Source of the DNA: Terriglobia bacterium
GTDB lineage: Bacteria; Acidobacteriota; Terriglobia; JAJPHL01
Direction of reading: 5' to 3'
DNA length: 64,000 bases
Assembly (NCBI GenBank): GCA_021325275.1
Contig: JAJPHL010000066.1
Span: 62,001 to 126,000, forward strand
In this document: in pieces, positions 37,120 to 49,871 of the stretch
Numbering within the stretch: the stretch's first letter is position 1
Layout of the letters: each line of letters opens with the position of its first letter
The notes under the pieces: generated by a model
Seen by the model: only the letters and a program-made list of their open reading frames with translations
Told to the model about the DNA's origin: nothing
Database searches by the model: none
Made by a program: the position numbers and the translations under genes

Positions 37120-39423
37120 CTAGCGGGTCAATTGGCTCTTGATCTCGTCCATCAACGCGCTGGCCTTGGCGACTTCCGGGAATTGCGCGTTCAACGCCAG
37201 GGCATGCTTCAGGTCGTTCATCGCGCCGGGCAAGTCACCGGAATCTTTTTTCACTAGCGCCAAGTGGTAAAGAATGCCGGAATTCCGTGGATCGCGCCGC
37301 GCGGCGTCGTCGAGAATTTCGCGCGCCGGCTTCAATTGGTTTTCCTTGTACTCGACAAAACCCAATGTATCGGCGTAACCGACGTTGGCCGGATCGCGTT
37401 CCAACGCGCGTCGCGCTAACAACTCGGCGCGCGCCAGATCGCCGTTGTCGCTTGCTAATCGCCACGCCAAATTGTTGGCGGCCACCGAATTTCGCGGATC
37501 CACCGTCAAGGCTTGCTCGAACGCTTGGGAAGCGCCCGGCAGATCGCCCTGCACTTCGCGAATCGATCCCAGCCACAGCCATCCCCAAGGAGATTTCGGC
37601 CAACGCTCGGTCAATTCTTCACAGTGCTTTTTCGCGGACTCGAGATCGTGCGAGGAAATCTCCACCTGCGCCATGGCCAAAATAGGATCGGGAGAGTCGG
37701 GATCCAAATCGACGGCCCGTTTCAAGAATTGAAACGCCGCCATGTGTTGACCGAGTCCGTTGGCCAAGTTCGCCACCAGCAAAATGTGCGGGACCGAATG
37801 CGCCAACTCGGGATTGTGACTGATTTGCATCTGCACGCGCGCGAACGCCAAGTCGCGCGACTTCACCACGCCGATCAGGTGCGCCAACGAAGTGAGAAGG
37901 CGCGCCGAGGCTGGTTGCTTCTGCAATTCTTTCTCGAGCGCCGGGCCGGTGGCCGCGGGACATTTGTCGAGGACGCTCGAAAAGCCCGCGCCGTAGAATT
38001 CCGGAATCCACGCGGCGCTCGTCGCCAGCGCGGCCGTGACGTCGGCGCAGGCGGCGGGATCCTTGTGCGTGGCTTGCTCGATGGACGCGAGACGCAAGCG
38101 CAGCAGCGGATCGTCTCCCTGCTCGGCCGGCGCTTGACGCAAGGTTTCCCACGCACCGTCGAAATTTCCGCTGCGCAACAGGTCGTCGGAAATCCAAAAA
38201 CGCGCCGGCCGTAGTCTGCTGTCGAGCCTCAGCGCCTCCTGCATGCTCTGGCGAGCCAGTTCGTCATTGCGGGCGCGTTGATAGCAAAGGCCCGCGAAGT
38301 AGTGAACCGACGCGGAATCGGGCATGAAGTGCAGCAGGTGATTAAATTCGGTGAGCGCTTCTTGATTCTGCCCCGTGGCGCTCTTCACCAAGCCGTTCAA
38401 CATGTGCGCCTGAAGATTCTTGTCGTTCTCCTGGAGTAACTGGGCCGCGATCTTGCGCGAGTCCTCATAGCGGCCGGCCAAATAATACGCGCCGCCCAGC
38501 CGGGCACGCTCCGCGGCCGTTTGTCCCTGCGGAGCGGCTTGCGCAATTGCTTCAAGCGCCGCGACCGCCTTGGGAATGTCGCCGCGAGAAAGATAAAACG
38601 TCGCCAGCGCGCCGCGCTGCTCGGGGTCGGTGGGATTCAGCTTCGCCGCGGCTTGAAATGCGCTCTCCGCCTTTTCCGGCTGGCCGGCGCGCATATAGAA
38701 CCGTCCTTGGCCGATGCGCAACTCCACCGACTGCGGATTGGCGCGCACGGCCTCATCGAGTAAAGGCTCGGCTTGCTCGGGATGACCGGTGAGTTGGTAG
38801 AAATTCGCCAGGACGATCAGCGACGTGGGCGAGCGTTTGGTGTTTTCCACTGCCGTTTTCAATTGGCTCTCGGCGTCGGTGAGATCCCGCGCGGCCAATT
38901 TGATCGACGCCAAAAGTACGCGCGCTTGCATGTTCGACGGATCGGCCAGCAGCGTTTGTTCCAACTCGCCGGCCGAGCGCTCCGGCTGCGCCATTTTCGC
39001 CAGCGCAAAGCCCAGCAGCTCGTGCGCCTCTTTGTTCTTGGGATCGCGCTGCACCACCCAGTTGCTCTGTTGGATCGCTCCGTCGGCATTTCCATCCAAC
39101 AGCATGATTCGCGCCAGGCGCAGGTGCATGTCCACGCTGTGCTCGCCCGGGTGATCGCCTTCCGCGGCCTCGGCGAGTTTCAAGGAACGCGCGGCCACCG
39201 CATAATCCTTCAACTCGAGACAGGCGATCGCGAAATAGTAGCGCGCGTCGACGCTTGGTTTTTTGGAGATCGCCAAGGCCAATTCCAGTCGCGCGTGCAC
39301 GTAGTCCTTTTGATCGAGGTAGCGGCGTCCACGCGCGTAGTGATCGAAGGGTGTGTAGCCGCAGCCGCACAACAGCAGGAAAATCGGGAGACTCAGTAAG
39401 GAACGAACCATATTAGGGCGCAT
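37120..39423 (-). CDS. TPR-repeat lipoprotein resembling PrsT of exosortase loci
   Basis: The 767-residue protein begins with a lipoprotein signal (VRSLLSLPIFLLLCGCGY; acceptor Cys near 20-22) followed by about 18-20 TPR units, with typical spacing (for example ARGRRYLDQKDYVHARLELALAI, GRFYMRAGQPEKAESAFQAAAKLNP, LGSIREVQGDLPGASQAFEQALTVDP). Long TPR lipoproteins of this size accompany EPS/exosortase loci. I start at ATG 39423, 9 bases after a TATAAT, with ATG 39411 as alternative. A hydrophilic scaffold role in the periplasm is likely but not proven. Confidence 0.8.
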   Translation of the reverse strand: MRPNMVRSLLSLPIFLLLCGCGYTPFDHYARGRRYLDQKDYVHARLELALAISKKPSVDARYYFAIACLELKDYAVAARSLKLAEAAEGDHPGEHSVDMHLRLARIMLLDGNADGAIQQSNWVVQRDPKNKEAHELLGFALAKMAQPERSAGELEQTLLADPSNMQARVLLASIKLAARDLTDAESQLKTAVENTKRSPTSLIVLANFYQLTGHPEQAEPLLDEAVRANPQSVELRIGQGRFYMRAGQPEKAESAFQAAAKLNPTDPEQRGALATFYLSRGDIPKAVAALEAIAQAAPQGQTAAERARLGGAYYLAGRYEDSRKIAAQLLQENDKNLQAHMLNGLVKSATGQNQEALTEFNHLLHFMPDSASVHYFAGLCYQRARNDELARQSMQEALRLDSRLRPARFWISDDLLRSGNFDGAWETLRQAPAEQGDDPLLRLRLASIEQATHKDPAACADVTAALATSAAWIPEFYGAGFSSVLDKCPAATGPALEKELQKQPASARLLTSLAHLIGVVKSRDLAFARVQMQISHNPELAHSVPHILLVANLANGLGQHMAAFQFLKRAVDLDPDSPDPILAMAQVEISSHDLESAKKHCEELTERWPKSPWGWLWLGSIREVQGDLPGASQAFEQALTVDPRNSVAANNLAWRLASDNGDLARAELLARRALERDPANVGYADTLGFVEYKENQLKPAREILDDAARRDPRNSGILYHLALVKKDSGDLPGAMNDLKHALALNAQFPEVAKASALMDEIKSQLTR

Positions 39424-39432
39424 CGGGTACAC

Positions 39433-39438
39433 ATTATA
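39433..39438 (-). promoter_or_regulatory. -10 element TATAAT close to the TPR gene start
   Basis: TATAAT is read on the minus strand, 9 bases before ATG 39423. No Shine-Dalgarno occurs before either possible ATG, so initiation may be leaderless or nearly so. Confidence 0.45.
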
Positions 39439-39616
39439 GCGGATCACGGATCCAAATGGGGAGTCTGGTACTATGACTTATCGCTGGGCCGAGAAAAGCA
39501 CCGTTTTGGGCAATAAGGTGAAAAAAGATGCGCCACACCTTGGGAAGCCGCTCGGCAGGCCTACGGATGATCCCGTAATATCAAGAGGTTGAAACCGCGG
39601 TCCCAAGCCGGGACTT

Positions 39617-39632
39617 TGGCACGGCGCTTGCA
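39617..39632 (+). promoter_or_regulatory. Sigma-54 promoter upstream of the PEP-CTERM gene
   Basis: TGGCAC-GGCGC-TTGCA has the -24 GG and -12 GC elements of RpoN promoters at exactly the right spacing (N5 between TGGCAC and TTGCA). The predicted start lies near 39642, leaving only about 5 bases before ATG 39647. In PEP-CTERM systems a PrsK/PrsR-type sensor and sigma-54 activator are known to drive substrate genes. Confidence 0.8.
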
Positions 39633-39646
39633 CTGAACGAAGACCT

Positions 39647-40336
39647 ATGCTGAAGCCTACTCTTGCGGGGATTTTGGTACTGTGCTGCTGCGGTTTCGCC
39701 CATGCCGGACCGTTGAATCTTGCGATGTTCCTGCCCGATGTCACTGCGACGAACGTGGGCGGATGCTACGGCGCGGGATCGGCGCCGGAATGTGCCGGTG
39801 CGGGAATGCTGGCATTGGAAGGTTTGGTATCGGGGTCAACGGCTCTTCAAACGGGCCCCAGCACCTTCTACGCGGTCACCAACAGCGCGCCCATCGGAAC
39901 GCTCTTTGGCACACTCAACTACAACTTGGGAATTACTGCTGCCATCAATAGCTCCGGCCAGATGAACGGGGCCGGTTCTTTGACCCTGACCGGCTCGGTC
40001 GCGGCGCTGGGCGATGGAACACCGCTGTTGACCGGATCCCTTCAGAACTTCGGGGCTTCGGCCGGTGTATACGATTTCGTCTTTCAGACGACGGGCGGCA
40101 GTTTGGCAGGCTTGTACGGCGGCGTAGGAAAGTTGCTGGACGTGGAAGTAGAGAACTCCTTCTTGCCGGGCACTTTCTCCAGCGGCTTCACGATGACGTC
40201 GGCGCAATTCGCCAATGGCGATGCCGATATTGCCGCGGCCTCGCCGGAACCGGGGTCGATGTTGTTACTGCTGTCGGGCTCGGGAATGCTCGGTCTATTG
40301 CGACTCCGTTCTCGGAAGACTGCGGTTTCCAAGTAA
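39647..40336 (+). CDS. PEP-CTERM sorting-domain protein
   Basis: The 229-residue protein has a signal peptide (MLKPTLAGILVLCCCGFAHA) and ends in a PEP-CTERM signal: SPEPGSMLLLLSGSGMLGLL, a hydrophobic segment, then RLRSRKTAVSK. The middle (GGCYGAGSAPECAGAGM, NSAPIGTLFGTLNYNLGITA, NSSGQMNGAGSLTLTGSVAAL) is Gly/Ser-rich and not otherwise recognised. Such proteins are exported and processed by an exosortase, which must be encoded elsewhere. The sigma-54 promoter lies directly upstream. The start is fixed by the signal peptide. Confidence 0.9.
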   Translation: MLKPTLAGILVLCCCGFAHAGPLNLAMFLPDVTATNVGGCYGAGSAPECAGAGMLALEGLVSGSTALQTGPSTFYAVTNSAPIGTLFGTLNYNLGITAAINSSGQMNGAGSLTLTGSVAALGDGTPLLTGSLQNFGASAGVYDFVFQTTGGSLAGLYGGVGKLLDVEVENSFLPGTFSSGFTMTSAQFANGDADIAAASPEPGSMLLLLSGSGMLGLLRLRSRKTAVSK

Positions 40337-40551
40337 ACAGCGCTAGAAGAAATCACCCCCTTGGTTTCTGCGGGACGGGTGTGTCTGAACGAGCAGCAAC
40401 GAAAAGTAGATTAAAAAATCGCTCGCAATTGTACTAGTACATAAGATTGCCGATTTTTGTAACCTACTGGTCCTTGGCGGCTCGAAAAACCAGCGTTACG
40501 ATCTTCGTGCAAGTTCGAATTCTCAGAGTGGATTCTTAAGGAGTGGAAGTT
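40337..40551 (+). promoter_or_regulatory. Upstream region of the first SdrD-B gene with conserved palindromic element
   Basis: The palindrome GTACTAGTAC at 40431-40440 lies in a conserved stretch (40429-40460: TTGTACTAGTAC, then TAAGATTG and CGATTTTTGT). The same block occurs at 43721-43752, at almost the same distance from the paralogous gene. AAGGAG at 40538-40543 is the ribosome binding site of the gene at 40552. Confidence 0.6.
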
Positions 40552-43500
40552 ATGCGTAAGCCGATTGCACTTTGTTCTTTGGTATTGCTGGTTGGTATCG
40601 CGACAACGCTTTCAGCGGCACTGCTCGGAGTTAGTCCTGGATACCCCAATTTCTCTTTCCGTAACGCCACCACCACGCAAACCTACGATCCCGGCACGCA
40701 GACTTTCGCGGCCAATTCGATCCTGAATTCGCTGGCGTTCTTCCTCGGCGACAGCCAGCCGGTGAGTCCGGCGGGCAGCGATCCGCTGCCGACGGTTGCC
40801 ATCTCGATCCAAGTGGACAACAGCGGCAACCTGACGGGTACGCCCACATCGCGGGACGTCGTGATCCGGGGAACGATCACCGATCCCAGCACGAGCCAGA
40901 CCTACACCGGCGATCTTCTCACCGGATCGATCAAGGGCTTCGGCTTTCAGCTAGGCTCCGGCGGAACTTCCACTTTCGATTTCGATTTTGCAGTAACCGG
41001 CGGCACAATGGCTTCATATTTTTCGGGCCAGCACATCGGCATAATTCTCAACAGCGAAGGTTCCACTTTTACGAATTCATTTGCGGTGGCATTTAACGGC
41101 CACACCAAGGGCAACATCGGTCCGATCCCAGGTCTCGTTGGGGGAGGTCAAGGGGGCTGCACCGGAACGATCGGCGATTTCGTGTGGAACGACCTCAACC
41201 AGAACGGCATTCAGGATGCCGGTGAACCGGGAATCAACGGCGTCCAACTGACGCTGCTCCAGGGCAGCCAAGTGGTCCAGACGGTCACAACCGCCAATGG
41301 TCCGGCCAACCAAATGGGCTACTATCAGTTCACAAACATTTGCCCGGGAACTTACACCGTACAAGTGACCGGCGGAGTACCGGCGAACTTCGTGCCCACG
41401 CTCCAGGGACAGGGCACTCCCGATGTGGACAGCAACAACCCCAGCGGGACGAGCGTTACATTGTCGACGAGCAACCCTTCGGATCAGACAATCGACTTCG
41501 GCTACTACTCCAATTGCAACGGCCAGATCGGCGATTTCGTGTGGAACGACGCGAATAACAATGGAATCCAAGACGCCGGAGAATTGGGCATTCCGAATGT
41601 CGTGCTGAACCTCTACGATTCCACCGGCACAAACTTCCTCGCGACCACCACGACAGACGCAAACGGTGTCTACAGTTTTGGAGGCGTCTGTAGTGGAACG
41701 TATTCGGTGCAAGTGATGTCGGGCATCCCTGCCGGCTTTACGCCCACCACCAGCAACGCCGGCGCCGATCGGACCGTGGATAGCAACGGCAGTCCCGCGT
41801 TGGTGACGCTGGCCACAAATCAGAGCGTCGATAACACCATTGACTTTGGTTATATCCCTCCGGCGCAGGGCAGCATCGGCGATTTCGTTTGGTATGACCA
41901 GAATCAAAACGGCATTCAGGATGCCGGCGAGCCCGGGATCAACGGTGTCACGGTGCAGTTGACCGATAGTCTCGGCAACACGCAGACGCAAATCACGGGT
42001 CCGGGACCGTTCGGCCTGGGTGGGTATTATCAGTTTACGGGCTTAGCGGCAGGAACCTACACGGTGAAGGTCGTTGCCAGTAGCGTGCCGGCAAACTACA
42101 CGGGCGTGACCATCAGCAGCGCTCCCGGCAGCACGGTTGCCAATGATAGCAACCAGCAACCCTCGACCGTCGTGCTCGCGACTAACAACAGTTCCGACCA
42201 GACGATCGATTTCGGCTACGTCGCCGCCTGCACCGGGTCCATTGGTGACTTCGTGTGGAGCGATACCAACGGCAACGGCATTCAGGATACCGGCGAGCCG
42301 GGCATCAACGGTGTCACTTTGAATCTCCTGAATCCCGTGAACAACGCGGTTCTGGCGACCACCACGACGGCCAATGGCGGAGCCTACCACTTCACGGGTC
42401 TGTGCCCCGGCTCCTACAAGGTACAAGTGGTGACGCCTGTGGACTACGTGCCCACGGTGGCCAATGCGACCGGCAGCACAACGGCCAACGACAGCAATAC
42501 CAACCCGTCGGTGGTCACCTTGGCGGAGGACAACAGCACGGACAACACCATCGACTTCGGCTTCGTGCCGGTGCCGCCGGTGAAGGTGGTTTGCCCCGCG
42601 AGCAGCGGCGTTGTCGGAGTGCCATACAGCTCATCGGTTTCAGCTTCCGGCGGAACGTCGCCGTATACGGATACGATCACCTCAGGTGCGTTGCCGACGG
42701 GTCTGTTGTTCAACACGCCCACGGTCGGAGCGATCACCGGAACACCGACCGCCGCAGGAGCCTTCAATTTCACGGTCAACGTAACCGATTCCACTCCTGG
42801 AGCGCCCCTGACCGCGACCGCGAGTTGCACGATCAACATCGTTCAAAGCTACCTGATCGTGAACAAGGTGACTGCGCCTACCGCCAACGATCCGACGGTA
42901 TTCTCGGTCACCGCCTCGGCGAGTAGCGGCTCGATCAGCACCAGTGCGCACAGCCTCAGTACCGCGGCGCCCGTAAAGTACGCCGTGACGCCGGGCACAT
43001 TTAGCGTCACCGAAGCCGCCATCGCTGGTTGGAACAATACCGGCAACACCTGTGTGAACGTCAGCGTAGCGGCCGGACAGACCGTCACGTGCACCCTGAC
43101 CAATACCAAGGTGTCCGCGGCCACGGGATATACCACCTACACCCAGGGCGGCTGGGGCACCACGCCTCACGGCAATAATCCCGGATCGCTGTTGCAGAAG
43201 GACTTCGCGACGGTCTACCCGGGCGGGTCGGTGTCGATTGGTGGAACCAAGAAGCTCACTTTCACCAGTTCGACGGCCATCCATAACTTCCTGCCGCAGG
43301 GCGGAACGCCGGGAGTGCTGGCTGCCTCCGCGACGAATCCCACGTCTTCCGCGGCCGGAGTCTTTGCCGGCCAGGTCCTGGCCCTTCAACTCAACGTGGA
43401 TTTCTCGAACAAAGGAATCACCAAGACCGGCCTCGCCAATCTGCACGCGGTCTCTGGAATGTTGGCGGGGCAAACCGTGGGCCAAATCCTGGCTCTGGCC

Positions 43501-43623
43501 AATTCCGTTATCGGAGGTGGCGCGTTGCCATCGGGCATGACGGTGTCGAACCTGAACGACATCGTGAACTCGATCAACAACAACTTCGACAGCGGTGCGG
43601 CGAACAATGGCTATCTTTACTAG
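40552..43623 (+). CDS. Large secreted SdrD-B-repeat surface protein (1023 aa)
   Basis: After a signal peptide (MRKPIALCSLVLLVGIATTL) comes an N-terminal domain of about 180 residues shared almost identically with the protein at 43851. Four SdrD B-like repeats begin near residues 206, 325, 441 and 563, each GxIGDFVWxDxNxNGIQDxGExGI, with Asp/Asn positions suited to bind calcium. A putative Ig-like domain (GVVGVPYSSSVSASGGTSPY) lies near 680 and a prealbumin-like one near 765. The last 180 residues have GGWGTTPHGNNPGSLLQKDFATVYPGG and LNVDFSNKGITKTG, a module seen in other surface proteins. No PEP-CTERM, LPXTG or type 9 tail is present. ATG 40552 follows AAGGAG. Confidence 0.85.
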   Translation: MRKPIALCSLVLLVGIATTLSAALLGVSPGYPNFSFRNATTTQTYDPGTQTFAANSILNSLAFFLGDSQPVSPAGSDPLPTVAISIQVDNSGNLTGTPTSRDVVIRGTITDPSTSQTYTGDLLTGSIKGFGFQLGSGGTSTFDFDFAVTGGTMASYFSGQHIGIILNSEGSTFTNSFAVAFNGHTKGNIGPIPGLVGGGQGGCTGTIGDFVWNDLNQNGIQDAGEPGINGVQLTLLQGSQVVQTVTTANGPANQMGYYQFTNICPGTYTVQVTGGVPANFVPTLQGQGTPDVDSNNPSGTSVTLSTSNPSDQTIDFGYYSNCNGQIGDFVWNDANNNGIQDAGELGIPNVVLNLYDSTGTNFLATTTTDANGVYSFGGVCSGTYSVQVMSGIPAGFTPTTSNAGADRTVDSNGSPALVTLATNQSVDNTIDFGYIPPAQGSIGDFVWYDQNQNGIQDAGEPGINGVTVQLTDSLGNTQTQITGPGPFGLGGYYQFTGLAAGTYTVKVVASSVPANYTGVTISSAPGSTVANDSNQQPSTVVLATNNSSDQTIDFGYVAACTGSIGDFVWSDTNGNGIQDTGEPGINGVTLNLLNPVNNAVLATTTTANGGAYHFTGLCPGSYKVQVVTPVDYVPTVANATGSTTANDSNTNPSVVTLAEDNSTDNTIDFGFVPVPPVKVVCPASSGVVGVPYSSSVSASGGTSPYTDTITSGALPTGLLFNTPTVGAITGTPTAAGAFNFTVNVTDSTPGAPLTATASCTINIVQSYLIVNKVTAPTANDPTVFSVTASASSGSISTSAHSLSTAAPVKYAVTPGTFSVTEAAIAGWNNTGNTCVNVSVAAGQTVTCTLTNTKVSAATGYTTYTQGGWGTTPHGNNPGSLLQKDFATVYPGGSVSIGGTKKLTFTSSTAIHNFLPQGGTPGVLAASATNPTSSAAGVFAGQVLALQLNVDFSNKGITKTGLANLHAVSGMLAGQTVGQILALANSVIGGGALPSGMTVSNLNDIVNSINNNFDSGAANNGYLY

Positions 43624-43850
43624 GAACTAGATGAGCGGGTCAGCGCGCTGCGGGTCTACGTGTCAGCGCGCTGCGGGCGTGCCGGAACGATCAAGAAAAT
43701 TCTGAGAAGAACGTGGGATTTTGTACTAGTACCTAAGATTGGCGATTTTTGTTACTCGCTGGTTCTGTGCGGCTTGGAAGAAGCACGTTAGCATTTTGGG
43801 TGCGGGTTAGATTTCCCAACTGGATTGTTTTAGTTTAAGGAGTGGAAGTT
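43624..43850 (+). promoter_or_regulatory. Spacer before the second SdrD-B gene: tandem repeat and conserved element
   Basis: GTCAGCGCGCTGCGGG occurs at 43639-43654 and 43662-43677 (period 23), each holding the palindrome AGCGCGCT. The conserved element with GTACTAGTAC is at 43723-43732 within 43721-43752. AAGGAG just before 43851 matches that of the upstream paralogue. Confidence 0.55.
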
Positions 43851-46800
43851 ATGCGTAAGTCCTTCGTGCTCGGTTCTCTGGTATTGTTGGTTGGCATCGC
43901 TACAACGGTTTCAGCCTCACTGCTCGGAGTCAGTCCTGGATTCCCCAATTTCTCTTTCCGCAATGCCACTACCACGCAAACCTACGATCCCGGCACGCAG
44001 ACTTTCTCGGCCAATTCGATTCTGAATTCGCTGGCGTTTTTCCTCGGCGACAGCCAGCCGGTGAGTCCGGCGGGCAGCGATCCGTTGCCGACTGTTGCCA
44101 TCTCGATCCAAGTGGACAACAGCGGCAATCTGACGGGTGCGCCCACGTCGCGGGACATCGTGATTCGCGGAACGATCACCGATCCCAGCACGAGCCAGAC
44201 GTACACCGGCGATCTCCTCACCGGATCGGTGAAAGGCTTCGGCTTTCAGCTAGTCAACGGCACAACCTCCGTCTTCGATTTCGACTTTGGAGTGACCGGC
44301 GGCACGATGGCTTCGTACTTCGCGGGCCAGGACATCGCCGTGGTTCTCAACAGCGAAGCTTCCACTTTTACGAATTCATTCGCGGTGGCATTCAACGGCC
44401 ACACCAAGGGCAACATTGGTCCGATCCCGAATACGTGCACCGGCTCCATCGGCGACTTCGTGTGGAGAGACCTGAACCTGAACGGAATTCAGGATTCCGG
44501 CGAACCGGGCATCGACGGCGTCAAGGTTCAGTTGAAGAACAGCGGCGGAAGCGTTCTGCAAACCACCATGACCGGTGTCGGACCGGCAAACCAGCACGGC
44601 TACTATCAATTCACCGGCGTGTGCGCCGGAAGTTACACCGTGGTTGTCGACAGTACGACATTGCCCGCCGGTGTTACACCGACGGCCAGCTTCCAGGGCA
44701 ACGATCCCACCGTGGACAGCAACGGCAGTCCAGCGTCGGTGACGCTCGCGACCAACTCGAGCAGCGATCAGACGATTGATTTTGGATACTTCGGGAGCAA
44801 CAGCCAGACAGGCAATGGCACGATCGGTGATTTTGTTTGGAATGATCTCAACGGCAACGGTATTCAGGACGCGGGTGAACCGGGAATCGCCGGCGTGACG
44901 GTGAATCTGTACGATTCCACCGGCACGAACCAACTCGCCACGACGGTGACCGGACCCAACGGGAATTACGCCTTCACCGGTCTCAATGCGGGCACCTACG
45001 TCGTGAAGATCGACGCTACGACGCTGCCGGCCGGATTCGTCGCCAGCCCCAGTTTGCAGGGCGGCAACACGGCCACCGACAGCAACGGCAGCCCTGCGAC
45101 CGTCACGCTTTCCACCAACACGTCGACCGACAACACCATCGACTTCGGCTACATCGGACCGGGCACCGGCTCGATCGGCGATTTCGTGTGGCACGACATG
45201 AATCAGAACGGCATTCAGGATGCCGGCGAACCGGGCATCGACGGCGTGACGGTCACGCTAAAGGATAGCTTGGGCAACGTCGTGGGCACGGCGGTCACCG
45301 GCCTTGGACCGTCGAATCAGCACGGCTACTATCAGTTCACCGGACTCCACGCCGGCACCTACATGGTGTCGGTGACCATGGGCGTCCCCGCGGGATGGAC
45401 GCCAACGATCACCAACGCGCCGGGTAGCACCACGGCCAACGACAGCAATTCGCAACCGGCGATTGTGACGCTCTCGACGAGCACATCGTCCGACCAAACC
45501 ATCGATTTCGGATACAACGCGCCCTGCACCGGCAGCATCGGCGACTTTGTGTGGAGCGATCTCAACGGCAACGGCATTCAAGACGCCGGTGAGCCGGGCA
45601 TCGACGGGGTAACGCTGAACTTGCGCAAACTGTCGGACAACAGCATCATCACAACCACCACAACGTCCGGCGGCGGCCTTTACTCCTTCGGCGGCGTCTG
45701 CCCCGGATCGTACAAAGTGGAAGTGATCACGCCGAACGGATACGTTCCGACGATCGTGAACGCGCCGGGCAGCACCACTGCGAACGACAGCAACCCGAAT
45801 CCGTCGACGGTGACGTTGCCGGAAGACAACTCCACCGACACAACGATCGACTTCGGATTCCAGCCGCGCAATGCTGCCATCGGCGATTTTGTGTGGAAGG
45901 ATTTGAACGGCAACGGCATTCAGGATGCCGGTGAGCCGGGCATTCCGGGCGTTACGGTGAACATCAGTGGCCCTGGCGGCTTCACGGCGTCCACCACCAC
46001 CGACGCAAACGGCGCCTATCACTTCACGGGACTTGCGCCGGGCAGCTACACGGTCACGTTCGTGGCGCCCACGGGATACGTCTTTTCGCCGCAATTCCAG
46101 GGATCGAACACGGCGGTCGATAGCAATGCGAACGCTTCAGGCGTTACGCCGGCGGTCACGCTGGCTGCGGGACAAACTGACAACACCATCGACGCGGGAC
46201 TCTATCAACCCGGCGCGATCGGCGACTTCGTTTGGAACGATTTGAACGACAACGGCGTGCAGGACTCGGGCGAGCCGGGCATCGGCGGCGTCACTGTGAC
46301 ATTGATGCACGGCAGCACGGTGATCGCCACGACCACCACGGCCACCGATGGTTCGTATCACTTCACGAACGTCGCGCCGGGAACTTATACCGTGAACTTC
46401 ACGGCGCCCTCGGGCTATGTGTTCTCGCCGCAATTCCAAGGCGGCAACACGGCCACCGACAGCAATCCCAACGCGTCGGGCGTCGCGACGGTCACGATTG
46501 TTTCCGGTCAGACCGACAACACCATCGACGCCGGGTTATTCCAGCCGCCGGCCGCGGTTGGCGACTTCGTGTGGAACGATTTGAACGGCAACGGTATTCA
46601 AGACGCCGGCGAGCCGGGATTGCAAGGCGTGCAGGTGAACTTGTACAACGGCACGTCGCTGATCGCGACAACAACGTCCGACGCGAATGGTGCTTATCAC
46701 TTCACCGGTCTCGCGCCGGGGACGTACACGGTGCAGTTCATCGCGCCGAACGGTTACGTTTTCTCGCCGTCGCTGCAGGGTTCAAACCGCGCGGTGGATA

Positions 46801-49800
46801 GCAATCCGACGCAGTTAGGCGTGACGAGCGCCTTCACGCTCGTCGCGGGACAAACCGACAACACGATCGACGCGGGTTTAATGGTCGCGCCGCCGCCGTG
46901 TACGCCGGTATCGATTACGGCGAACTTCAACGGCACGGCGATCAACGCGGGCAGCTACATTTGGGTCTCCGCGGTCGCCAAGGTTCAGGGCATTCCGCCG
47001 GGAACGAATCCGACGATCAACATTACGAATGCGTCGGTCCATTCGACAAGTATCTTCGCTCCGGTTCCCAACGGCACGATCACGCTTCAGTCCGGACCGG
47101 GCGTAACCGCAGCGACAACGTTCAACACGTCGACGAACACGTGGGTGACGACGGTACCGCAACCGCTGGGGGGCAATTATTTCCTCACCGCCGTGGCGAT
47201 TCCAGTCACAACCGCGGTCGCCGGCGGCCAAAGCTTGACGTTCACGGCCAGCTACACGACGGATACTCCGGGAGTCACGGTCAACTGGCAGTTTGCGGCC
47301 GCTGTGTACACGAGCTTCACGACGAATTACACGACGCTCGGCGTGAAACCGGTGGACGATCCGAATGCCAGCAGCTACAAGAACTCCGATCACGCCGGAA
47401 CGCCCGAAAACTACAAGGGCTCGGTGACGGGCGGCGCGATGGGTGGTGGTGGATCGAACTTCACCGGCTCGCTCAGCTCCACGCTGACGTCCACGCCTTG
47501 CACCGCGGGCGGCGCGGCGCAGTGTGTACTCGGATATCCGTACACCAGCAGCAATCCGCTGACCAGCGTTGTATTCAACGAAAGCGGCGTGCTCGCGGCT
47601 TCCGATCCGTCGGTCGCCGACGCCGGCGACACCATCCGCATGTTTGCGGCGGACGAACACGCCATTCTGCTCGGCGTGCGCACCAGCGCGCTGCCGATCT
47701 CGGCGCTCACCCAGAATCCCGGACACGTTTCGCATCCCTCGGTCGGCGATCCCACGATCACCGATCCGTCGGGTCGCCCGATCTTCCCGTCGATCTTCGT
47801 GACCGACATCACGGGAGTTTCCGATAACTCGACGCACACCGATCCGACGTATCGCGCCGGTGACTGGCAGTACGGCGGCACAGCGATGCAGCCGAGCGAC
47901 ATCTTCGGGACGTGGAAGGGAGCTTCGAAGTCCGGAAGCACCTTGACCACCGACGCCGATCCCTCGCAGAACCAATGGAATCTCGGCTCGGGCAGCGATG
48001 TTCCTTCGGCCGGGTTCTCCGGTTTGACGAATCAAGGGTACGGCGCGGAAGTTCGCTGGAACGTGAATGATATTCGCGTCGGCGGACAGCCGCTGCAATT
48101 CGGCCACCAGTATCGCATTCAGTTGATGGTTCACGACGGCGATCAAAACCAGTCGGGCGGCGACGTCGGCGAAGCATGCATGTTGGTCAACATCATGTCG
48201 CCGATTCCTTCCGGCACCGGAACCATCGGCAACTTCGTGTGGAGCGATACCAACGGCAACGGCATTCAGGATGCCGGCGAGCCGGGACTCCCCGGCGTCA
48301 CCGTGCAGCTCTCCGACAGCAACGGCAACGTCGTGGGTTCGACGGTTACCGACTCCAACGGCAACTACCTGTTCACCGGACTCGCCACTGGAAACTACAC
48401 AGTGACTGCGGCGACTCCTGCCGGTTACACGCCGTCGCCTGCCGGCGTGGGCGGAAATCCCGCGATTGATTCCAACGGCAGCCCTGCGACGGTTTCGGTA
48501 ACGGCGGACAGCAGCAACGTAACGGTGGACTTCGGCTTCGTGCCGCCGCCTCCGCCGCCTTGCACGCCGGTGGCGATCAACGATAAGTTCAACGCTTCGG
48601 CGATCAACGCCGGCAATTACATTTGGTTCACGGCGACGCTGAAGCCCAGCGGCATTAAGGCCGGCCAATCGGCCACGGTGCAGTTCACCAACGGAAGTGT
48701 GCAATCGACGGCGTTCAATGTGCCATTGCCGAACGCGAAGATCACGTTCTCAGCGACGGCGACAACCGCGACGACCGTTTACGATGCGTCGTCGAACACA
48801 TACACGACGGTGGTTCCGGCCACGCTCGCCGGCAACACCTTCCTGACAGGCGTGCCGTTCCTAGTTTCCTCAAATATTCCCGGCGCGCTCAACAATGTGT
48901 CGATGACCGGCAGTTTCACCACCGATACCACGGGTGTCAACGTGAGTTGGCAATGGGAAGCTGCGGTTTACAGTACGTTCAACAGCAATCCGAGCGCACT
49001 GGGCATCAAGCCGGTGGATGATCCGCATGCCAGCACCTATCAGAACAACGATCACGCGGGCACACCGGAGAATTATCGCGCCAACGGCGTGAGCGGCGCG
49101 ACGGGCGGCGGTGGACCGGGCGATATCGGCGCGGCTTCGCCGGGACAGAACACCACTCCGTGCGTGGTGACGATCGCGAACACCGGATCGTGCGTGCTCG
49201 GGTATCCGTTCTCGAGCAGCAATCCGCTGACGAGCGTGGTCTTCAATGAAAGCACCGTGCTCGATTGGGTCGATCCGTCGCAAGCCACCATGAACGACAC
49301 GATCCGCCTCTTCGCAGCGGATGAACACGCGATCCTGCTCGGCGTGCACAACAACAATCTGAGCGTTTCGGCGCTGCCGGCGAATCCGGGCCACGTGACT
49401 TCTCCGTCGATCGGCGATCCTTCGGTCACCGATCCATCGGGACGCCCGATCTTCCCGTCGTTGTTCATCACCGACATCACGGGACTCACCGACAACGCGT
49501 CGCACACTGATCCAACGTATCGCGCCGGTGACTGGCAGTTCGGCGGAGCGCCGCAAGCTCCGAACGATATCTTCGGAACGTGGAAAGGCGCTTCGGTTTC
49601 CGGAACTACCATCACCACCGACGCCGATCCGACGACCAAGAACAACTGGACGCTCGGCACGGGCAGCGACACGCCTTCGGTCGGATTCTCGGGTCTGACC
49701 AACGAGGGCTACGGCGCGGAAGTTCGCTGGAACGTGAACAACTTGCTGTTCAACGGCCAGCCGTTGCAGCCGGGTCACACCTATCGCATCCAGTTGATGG

Positions 49801-49871
49801 TGCACGACGGCGATCAGAACAAGTCGGGCGGCGACGTCGGCCAGGCTTGCGCGACGGTGACGATCCACTAA
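43851..49871 (+). CDS. Very large secreted SdrD-B-repeat surface protein (2006 aa)
   Basis: Signal peptide and N-terminal domain match the preceding paralogue. Seven SdrD B-like repeats begin near residues 198, 324, 441, 562, 676, 789 and 902 (IGDFVW.DLN.NGIQDAGEPGI). A module of about 435 residues follows (1015-1451: TPVSITANFNGTAINAGSYIWV, KPVDDPN, DHAGTPENYKG, MFAADEHAILLGV, DPTYRAGDWQYGG, YRIQLMVHDGDQNQSGGDVG), then an eighth SdrD-B repeat near 1458 and a second copy of the module (1569-2006), which ends the protein. A proline run (PPPPPP) precedes the second module. The repeats probably bind calcium and stiffen a long surface fibre. No anchor or sorting tail is visible. Confidence 0.85.
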   Translation: MRKSFVLGSLVLLVGIATTVSASLLGVSPGFPNFSFRNATTTQTYDPGTQTFSANSILNSLAFFLGDSQPVSPAGSDPLPTVAISIQVDNSGNLTGAPTSRDIVIRGTITDPSTSQTYTGDLLTGSVKGFGFQLVNGTTSVFDFDFGVTGGTMASYFAGQDIAVVLNSEASTFTNSFAVAFNGHTKGNIGPIPNTCTGSIGDFVWRDLNLNGIQDSGEPGIDGVKVQLKNSGGSVLQTTMTGVGPANQHGYYQFTGVCAGSYTVVVDSTTLPAGVTPTASFQGNDPTVDSNGSPASVTLATNSSSDQTIDFGYFGSNSQTGNGTIGDFVWNDLNGNGIQDAGEPGIAGVTVNLYDSTGTNQLATTVTGPNGNYAFTGLNAGTYVVKIDATTLPAGFVASPSLQGGNTATDSNGSPATVTLSTNTSTDNTIDFGYIGPGTGSIGDFVWHDMNQNGIQDAGEPGIDGVTVTLKDSLGNVVGTAVTGLGPSNQHGYYQFTGLHAGTYMVSVTMGVPAGWTPTITNAPGSTTANDSNSQPAIVTLSTSTSSDQTIDFGYNAPCTGSIGDFVWSDLNGNGIQDAGEPGIDGVTLNLRKLSDNSIITTTTTSGGGLYSFGGVCPGSYKVEVITPNGYVPTIVNAPGSTTANDSNPNPSTVTLPEDNSTDTTIDFGFQPRNAAIGDFVWKDLNGNGIQDAGEPGIPGVTVNISGPGGFTASTTTDANGAYHFTGLAPGSYTVTFVAPTGYVFSPQFQGSNTAVDSNANASGVTPAVTLAAGQTDNTIDAGLYQPGAIGDFVWNDLNDNGVQDSGEPGIGGVTVTLMHGSTVIATTTTATDGSYHFTNVAPGTYTVNFTAPSGYVFSPQFQGGNTATDSNPNASGVATVTIVSGQTDNTIDAGLFQPPAAVGDFVWNDLNGNGIQDAGEPGLQGVQVNLYNGTSLIATTTSDANGAYHFTGLAPGTYTVQFIAPNGYVFSPSLQGSNRAVDSNPTQLGVTSAFTLVAGQTDNTIDAGLMVAPPPCTPVSITANFNGTAINAGSYIWVSAVAKVQGIPPGTNPTINITNASVHSTSIFAPVPNGTITLQSGPGVTAATTFNTSTNTWVTTVPQPLGGNYFLTAVAIPVTTAVAGGQSLTFTASYTTDTPGVTVNWQFAAAVYTSFTTNYTTLGVKPVDDPNASSYKNSDHAGTPENYKGSVTGGAMGGGGSNFTGSLSSTLTSTPCTAGGAAQCVLGYPYTSSNPLTSVVFNESGVLAASDPSVADAGDTIRMFAADEHAILLGVRTSALPISALTQNPGHVSHPSVGDPTITDPSGRPIFPSIFVTDITGVSDNSTHTDPTYRAGDWQYGGTAMQPSDIFGTWKGASKSGSTLTTDADPSQNQWNLGSGSDVPSAGFSGLTNQGYGAEVRWNVNDIRVGGQPLQFGHQYRIQLMVHDGDQNQSGGDVGEACMLVNIMSPIPSGTGTIGNFVWSDTNGNGIQDAGEPGLPGVTVQLSDSNGNVVGSTVTDSNGNYLFTGLATGNYTVTAATPAGYTPSPAGVGGNPAIDSNGSPATVSVTADSSNVTVDFGFVPPPPPPCTPVAINDKFNASAINAGNYIWFTATLKPSGIKAGQSATVQFTNGSVQSTAFNVPLPNAKITFSATATTATTVYDASSNTYTTVVPATLAGNTFLTGVPFLVSSNIPGALNNVSMTGSFTTDTTGVNVSWQWEAAVYSTFNSNPSALGIKPVDDPHASTYQNNDHAGTPENYRANGVSGATGGGGPGDIGAASPGQNTTPCVVTIANTGSCVLGYPFSSSNPLTSVVFNESTVLDWVDPSQATMNDTIRLFAADEHAILLGVHNNNLSVSALPANPGHVTSPSIGDPSVTDPSGRPIFPSLFITDITGLTDNASHTDPTYRAGDWQFGGAPQAPNDIFGTWKGASVSGTTITTDADPTTKNNWTLGTGSDTPSVGFSGLTNEGYGAEVRWNVNNLLFNGQPLQPGHTYRIQLMVHDGDQNKSGGDVGQACATVTIH

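Follow-up and report, generated by a model that had tools for sequence, protein, structure and literature searches.

A PEP-CTERM gene in this genome is preceded by a perfect sigma-54 promoter site, placed so close to the start codon that its mRNA is likely to be near-leaderless. Genes arranged in this way seem to form a class that recurs and is conserved within the lineage, judging from where their predicted promoters lie. The site is located in the window, by which we mean the whole 64,000-nt stretch of DNA analysed here. Near-leaderless sigma-54 genes, with conservation at fliL, are a more interesting result than the PEP-CTERM site itself. In our preferred reading, which we consider probable, the PEP-CTERM gene would have a working sigma-54 promoter under an NtrC-family activator, with transcription starting ∼4 nt before the AUG and leaderless translation, as part of this recurring class.

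The site, TGGCACGGCGCTTGCA at 39617–39632 (+), comprises a −24 element TGGCACG (39617–39623), four intervening nucleotides and a −12 element TTGCA (39628–39632), with both elements and their spacing matching the consensus exactly. This confirms the TGGCAC-N5-TTGCA with exact spacing described in an earlier sequence-only reading. The GG and GC elements, the required spacing and the consensus flanks of a sigma-54 promoter are all present, and the genome encodes both RpoN (one copy) and enhancer-binding activators. When the window was scanned allowing up to one mismatch, this was the sole match, and a perfect one, compared with 1.46 matches in shuffled window sequence. Across the whole genome, TGGCACN5TTGC occurs at 16 sites versus 22 for the mirrored pattern. 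Because of this count the motif alone is weak evidence; its presence by itself carries little weight and its position is what counts. The search for further sites of this form ended at chance level; sigma-54-like sites before PEP-CTERM genes proved to be enriched (see below). Short palindromes beside the promoter add no support.

Such a background would also suit an explanation that we regard as unlikely, namely that the match is coincidental and an ordinary, unrecognised promoter drives the PEP-CTERM gene. In line with this, 123 of 160 strong sigma-54 sites lie inside genes, and no clear orthologue of the PEP-CTERM protein with which to compare the window site was found among 200 relatives and the genome collection (one weak partial match). 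Upstream of gene starts, however, the picture is different: using a sigma-54 matrix typed in approximately rather than taken from a published table, 24 sites scoring at least 12.5 were intergenic and upstream of a start in 1.63 Mb (24% of the genome), compared with 2 mirrored sites. The window site and a site before fliK are the two top scorers among these 24, and a simple sigma-70 promoter scan of 39300–40700 gave no promoter-like match, which argues further against coincidence.

The PEP-CTERM gene (39647–40336, +) encodes a 229-aa protein in which a signal peptide, a PEP motif, a transmembrane stretch and a basic tail are all visible. Its ATG at 39647 opens a good signal peptide, MLKPTLAGILVLCCCGFAHA, and SPEPGSMLLLLSGSGMLGLLRLRSRK lies near the C-terminus. 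By models the PEP-CTERM tail is borderline, scoring 21.5 bits against PF07589 (cut-off 20.7) in one search but 17.5 bits in hmmscan, and 15.8 bits against TIGR02595 (cut-off 16). By the standard −24/−12 rule, applied from the −12 C at 39631, the predicted transcript start is the A at 39643, leaving a 4-nt leader (ACCU; 39643–39646). The start had earlier been placed about 5 bases before the ATG; its position just upstream of the ATG holds, with a distance of 4 nt by this rule. Since a predicted leader of just 4 nt has no room for one, the mRNA would lack a Shine–Dalgarno sequence; a weak GAAG at 39639–39642 precedes the predicted start and so would not be transcribed. Folding of the 5′ end of the RNA was not stronger than in shuffles. 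The proposal of a nearly leaderless mRNA is supported as a prediction, and fliL shows conservation of such an arrangement.

It is very unlikely, in our estimate, that translation begins at TTG 39674 behind a genuine sigma-54 promoter, or that the transcript start is shifted. The TTG would have a leader of ∼31 nt and a G-rich stretch (GGGG) ahead of it, and the composition-based gene model put the start further in, at 39725, but gene calls that rest on composition are unreliable where a signal peptide is concerned. Starting at 39674 would cost the signal peptide its charged n-region, and the ATG at 39647 is the first start codon in frame, with no upstream in-frame ATG, GTG or TTG.

The same arrangement recurs elsewhere in the genome. 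Leaders at the 24 upstream sites measured 0–5 nt in eight cases, 6–11 nt in none, 12–15 nt in five and 40–81 nt in eleven. The eight shortest belong to fliK (5 nt), fliL (3 nt), a chemoreceptor-like gene (2 nt), a response-regulator-like gene (4 nt), the PEP-CTERM gene (4 nt) and genes for three predicted exported proteins (0, 2 and 3 nt). If the first in-frame start were simply picked, ∼1.5 leaders of 0–5 nt would be expected by chance. Gene starts were set with a simple composition model together with inspection of signal peptides or orthologues, and the composition-based start agrees in four of these eight genes. The identity of fliL was confirmed with PF03748; the FliK domain is just under the Pfam cut-off, and the gene is inside a flagellar cluster. 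The sequence-only reading had called a nearly leaderless mRNA unusual for sigma-54 genes, which is correct among PEP-CTERM genes. It does not apply to the organism, in which about one third of the detected sigma-54 promoters look this way. A second genome (G059; 400 kb) yielded too few sites, 6 real versus 2 mirrored, for its leader distribution to add to this.

Conservation was clearest at fliL. Of the 25 orthologues that could be used, all from this class and from related genomes that are not independent, 17 have a sigma-54 site with a 2–7 nt leader (families f1, f4, f6 and f10), and only 1 of the 25 has a sigma-54 site elsewhere between −10 and 140 nt. Several of the remaining orthologues show weaker forms of the site at the same position by eye. 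This phasing also bears on a further reading that we consider just as improbable as a downstream start, in which an inactive sigma-54 closed complex over the start codon halts transcription arriving from upstream until the complex is removed by an activator. Sigma-54 sites with roles other than that of a simple promoter are known, and the holoenzyme footprint would reach the start codon, but such a block requires a second, upstream promoter, of which none was recognised, and would tolerate more positions than the tight 2–7 nt at fliL, which fits a transcript start better.

Farther afield, three more distant Acidobacteriota (L149, L150 and L129) carry a gene for a ∼70–77 aa zinc-ribbon-like protein with a perfect-consensus sigma-54 site and a 1-nt leader. 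Upstream of this gene are two tandem TGTCCC-N5-GGAACA-type repeats, probably activator sites. In a phylum-wide count of strict-consensus sites, an ATG at leader 0–6 was no commoner than at impossible positions, and the ORFs included some real near-leaderless cases amid chance ones. We therefore limit the claim of such a gene class to this genome and, across its taxonomic class, to fliL. Sigma-54 leaders in the phylum sample peak at 14–18 nt, with a Shine–Dalgarno sequence. We found no earlier description of a sigma-54 leaderless class in the open-access literature.

Translation of mRNAs with 2–5 nt leaders is plausible here, because the genome has a sigma-70 leaderless signature and because 9.7–19.4% of genes were predicted to be leaderless in three Acidobacteria (PMC3160421). 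Counted over 715 genes that have a gap upstream, TANNNT shows a sharp peak before start codons: it begins at −14 to −12 in 94 cases, where ∼20 would be expected. A Shine–Dalgarno motif accompanies just 5% of the 100 genes that carry TANNNT at −14 to −11, and just 20% of all first genes (control 9%). About one tenth of first genes thus look leaderless by this sigma-70-type signature.

Sigma-54-like sites are enriched before PEP-CTERM genes. Sites scoring at least 10 within ∼150 nt were found for 8 of the 25 PEP-CTERM genes in this genome and for 14 of the 208 other first genes (P = 7e-4, Fisher); the comparison is conservative, as no fewer than two PEP-CTERM genes are counted in the background. 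In relatives, 66 PEP-CTERM genes include 17 with such a site versus 4 mirrored. The other seven sigma-54-type PEP-CTERM genes of this genome have leaders of 36–67 nt, and sites scoring at least 11 in relatives give leaders of 29–124 nt, mostly with Shine–Dalgarno-like sequence. In Proteobacteria the distance from the end of the motif averages 71 nt with a minimum of 23 (PMC1569441). The window gene is an outlier among PEP-CTERM genes because the leaders of the other sigma-54-type ones are ∼29–124 nt, in agreement with the proteobacterial distances; it thus looks like a member of the near-leaderless sigma-54 class that departs from its own protein family. Elsewhere in this genome, the neighbouring paralogous genes L220:9143 and L220:11247 (contig C46), both beginning MKKFSLIILTISMA, are nearly identical upstream, where each has a sigma-54-like site that gives a leader of 53–57 nt.

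Candidate activator sequences were sought upstream of the sigma-54-type PEP-CTERM genes. Four of them (the window gene, L038, L022 and L031) have GTACTA, a word rare in this genome, 137–161 nt before their −24 elements; in the window it lies within GTACTAT at 39468–39474 (+), 149 nt before the −24 element. As the word was chosen after the fact, it is suggestive only, and GTACTA may serve as a lead for an activator site: four of the five genomic matches to the joint pattern with sigma-54 are the PEP-CTERM genes that suggested it, and the fifth is in a greA-like gene. A Gibbs motif search upstream of the eight sigma-54-type PEP-CTERM genes was not clearly above shuffled controls. Separately, TTGC(A/G)C occurs ∼59–110 nt before the −24 element in six of the eight (L038, L022, L031, L034, L028 and L033; background 18% of upstream regions); it was rejected as a common word because it is not at the right place before the window gene.

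The genome contains an exosortase, encoded on another contig (PF09721, 233.6 bits; TIGR02602, 191.3 bits against a cut-off of 105.55), and the window itself contains an exosortase-linked type of exopolysaccharide locus, with chain-length/tyrosine kinase, export protein, amidotransferases and glycosyltransferases. About two dozen proteins give strong NtrC-type activator matches. One adjoins the exosortase, whose neighbours are EpsI, this NtrC-type regulator (receiver, sigma-54 activator and Fis helix) and a histidine kinase. Control by PrsK/PrsR, raised in the sequence-only reading, is not supported for these proteins as curated, since no protein in the genome reaches the curated cut-off for either: the best PrsR match (TIGR02915) was 432.8 bits against 502.6, with the regulator beside the exosortase at 352.3 bits, and the best PrsK match (TIGR02916) was 93.7 bits against 300, in the kinase domain only. 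Motif 1 of the proteobacterial PEP-CTERM box, which ends in TTTACA (PMC1569441), was also absent 32–92 nt before the sigma-54 site, by direct reading of both strands of 39448–39616. Control of the PEP-CTERM gene by a sigma-54 activator is nonetheless likely, and the earlier suggestion to that effect is well supported by the perfect site, rpoN, the many activators and the enrichment before PEP-CTERM genes.

Divergent from the PEP-CTERM gene lies a gene for a PrsT-like TPR lipoprotein (37120–39411, −; TIGR02917, 237.2 bits, below the cut-off of 312.2). On the same strand, a perfect TATAAT (39433–39438) stands 9 nt before an in-frame ATG (39421–39423), so this gene may be near-leaderless too, or may begin at a second ATG (39409–39411). 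Downstream of the PEP-CTERM gene are genes for two very large repeat proteins (40543–43623 and 43842–49871, both +) with near-identical N-termini, the first SdrD/SdrC-like by NCBIfam but below cut-off.

We propose that an NtrC-family activator would switch on the sigma-54 promoter of the PEP-CTERM gene. Candidates are the exosortase-adjacent regulator with receiver, sigma-54-activator and Fis parts, and an activator that also serves the flagellar genes. With transcription beginning ∼4 nt ahead of the AUG, the mRNA would lack a Shine–Dalgarno sequence and would be translated by a leaderless route (70S or 5′-AUG recognition), apparently the one followed by many sigma-70 genes in this genome. The site, its spacing, the enrichment and the conservation at fliL are direct observations; RpoN dependence, transcript start, activator identity and translation mode are here what we infer from sequence. 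The PEP-CTERM gene would then be one case of a near-leaderless sigma-54 class recurring in this class of Acidobacteriota. With somewhat less confidence than for the promoter of this gene, we favour the view that the set (fliL, fliK, a chemoreceptor and some exported proteins including this PEP-CTERM substrate) has its promoter-to-start distance under selection, with activator-gated transcription feeding leaderless translation.

Leaderless genes are usually considered in connection with sigma-70-type promoters. If true, a conserved class with sigma-54 promoters would join the most tightly gated type of bacterial promoter to Shine–Dalgarno-independent translation, and gene finders that assume ribosome-binding sites would mis-call the starts of such genes. 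Our data also suggest that Acidobacteriota, too, place PEP-CTERM genes under sigma-54 control, which was initially described as restricted to Proteobacteria.

Three known systems resemble parts of this arrangement. As in the proteobacterial sigma-54/PrsR PEP-CTERM genes (Haft 2006, PMC1569441; Aquincola pepA, PMC9850573), a −24/−12 site precedes a PEP-CTERM gene, a PrsT-like TPR gene adjoins it, and the genome has an exosortase and sigma-54 activators; in Aquincola, RpoN-dependent transcription of a PEP-CTERM gene beside prsT was demonstrated experimentally (PMC9850573). Unlike that system, the host here is an acidobacterium with neither the TTTACA motif 1 nor a curated PrsR or PrsK. Leaderless sigma-70 genes (Deinococcus-Thermus, PMC12340547; Acidobacteria, PMC3160421) likewise have a promoter abutting the ORF and no Shine–Dalgarno sequence, and their −10-box signature at −14 to −12 is found in this same genome, but the window promoter is of the enhancer-dependent sigma-54 type and its predicted leader is 4 nt, not 0. 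Finally, the window site shares with canonical sigma-54 promoters a perfect TGGCACG-N4-TTGCA, whereas the leaders of canonical sigma-54 promoters are usually long enough for a Shine–Dalgarno sequence.
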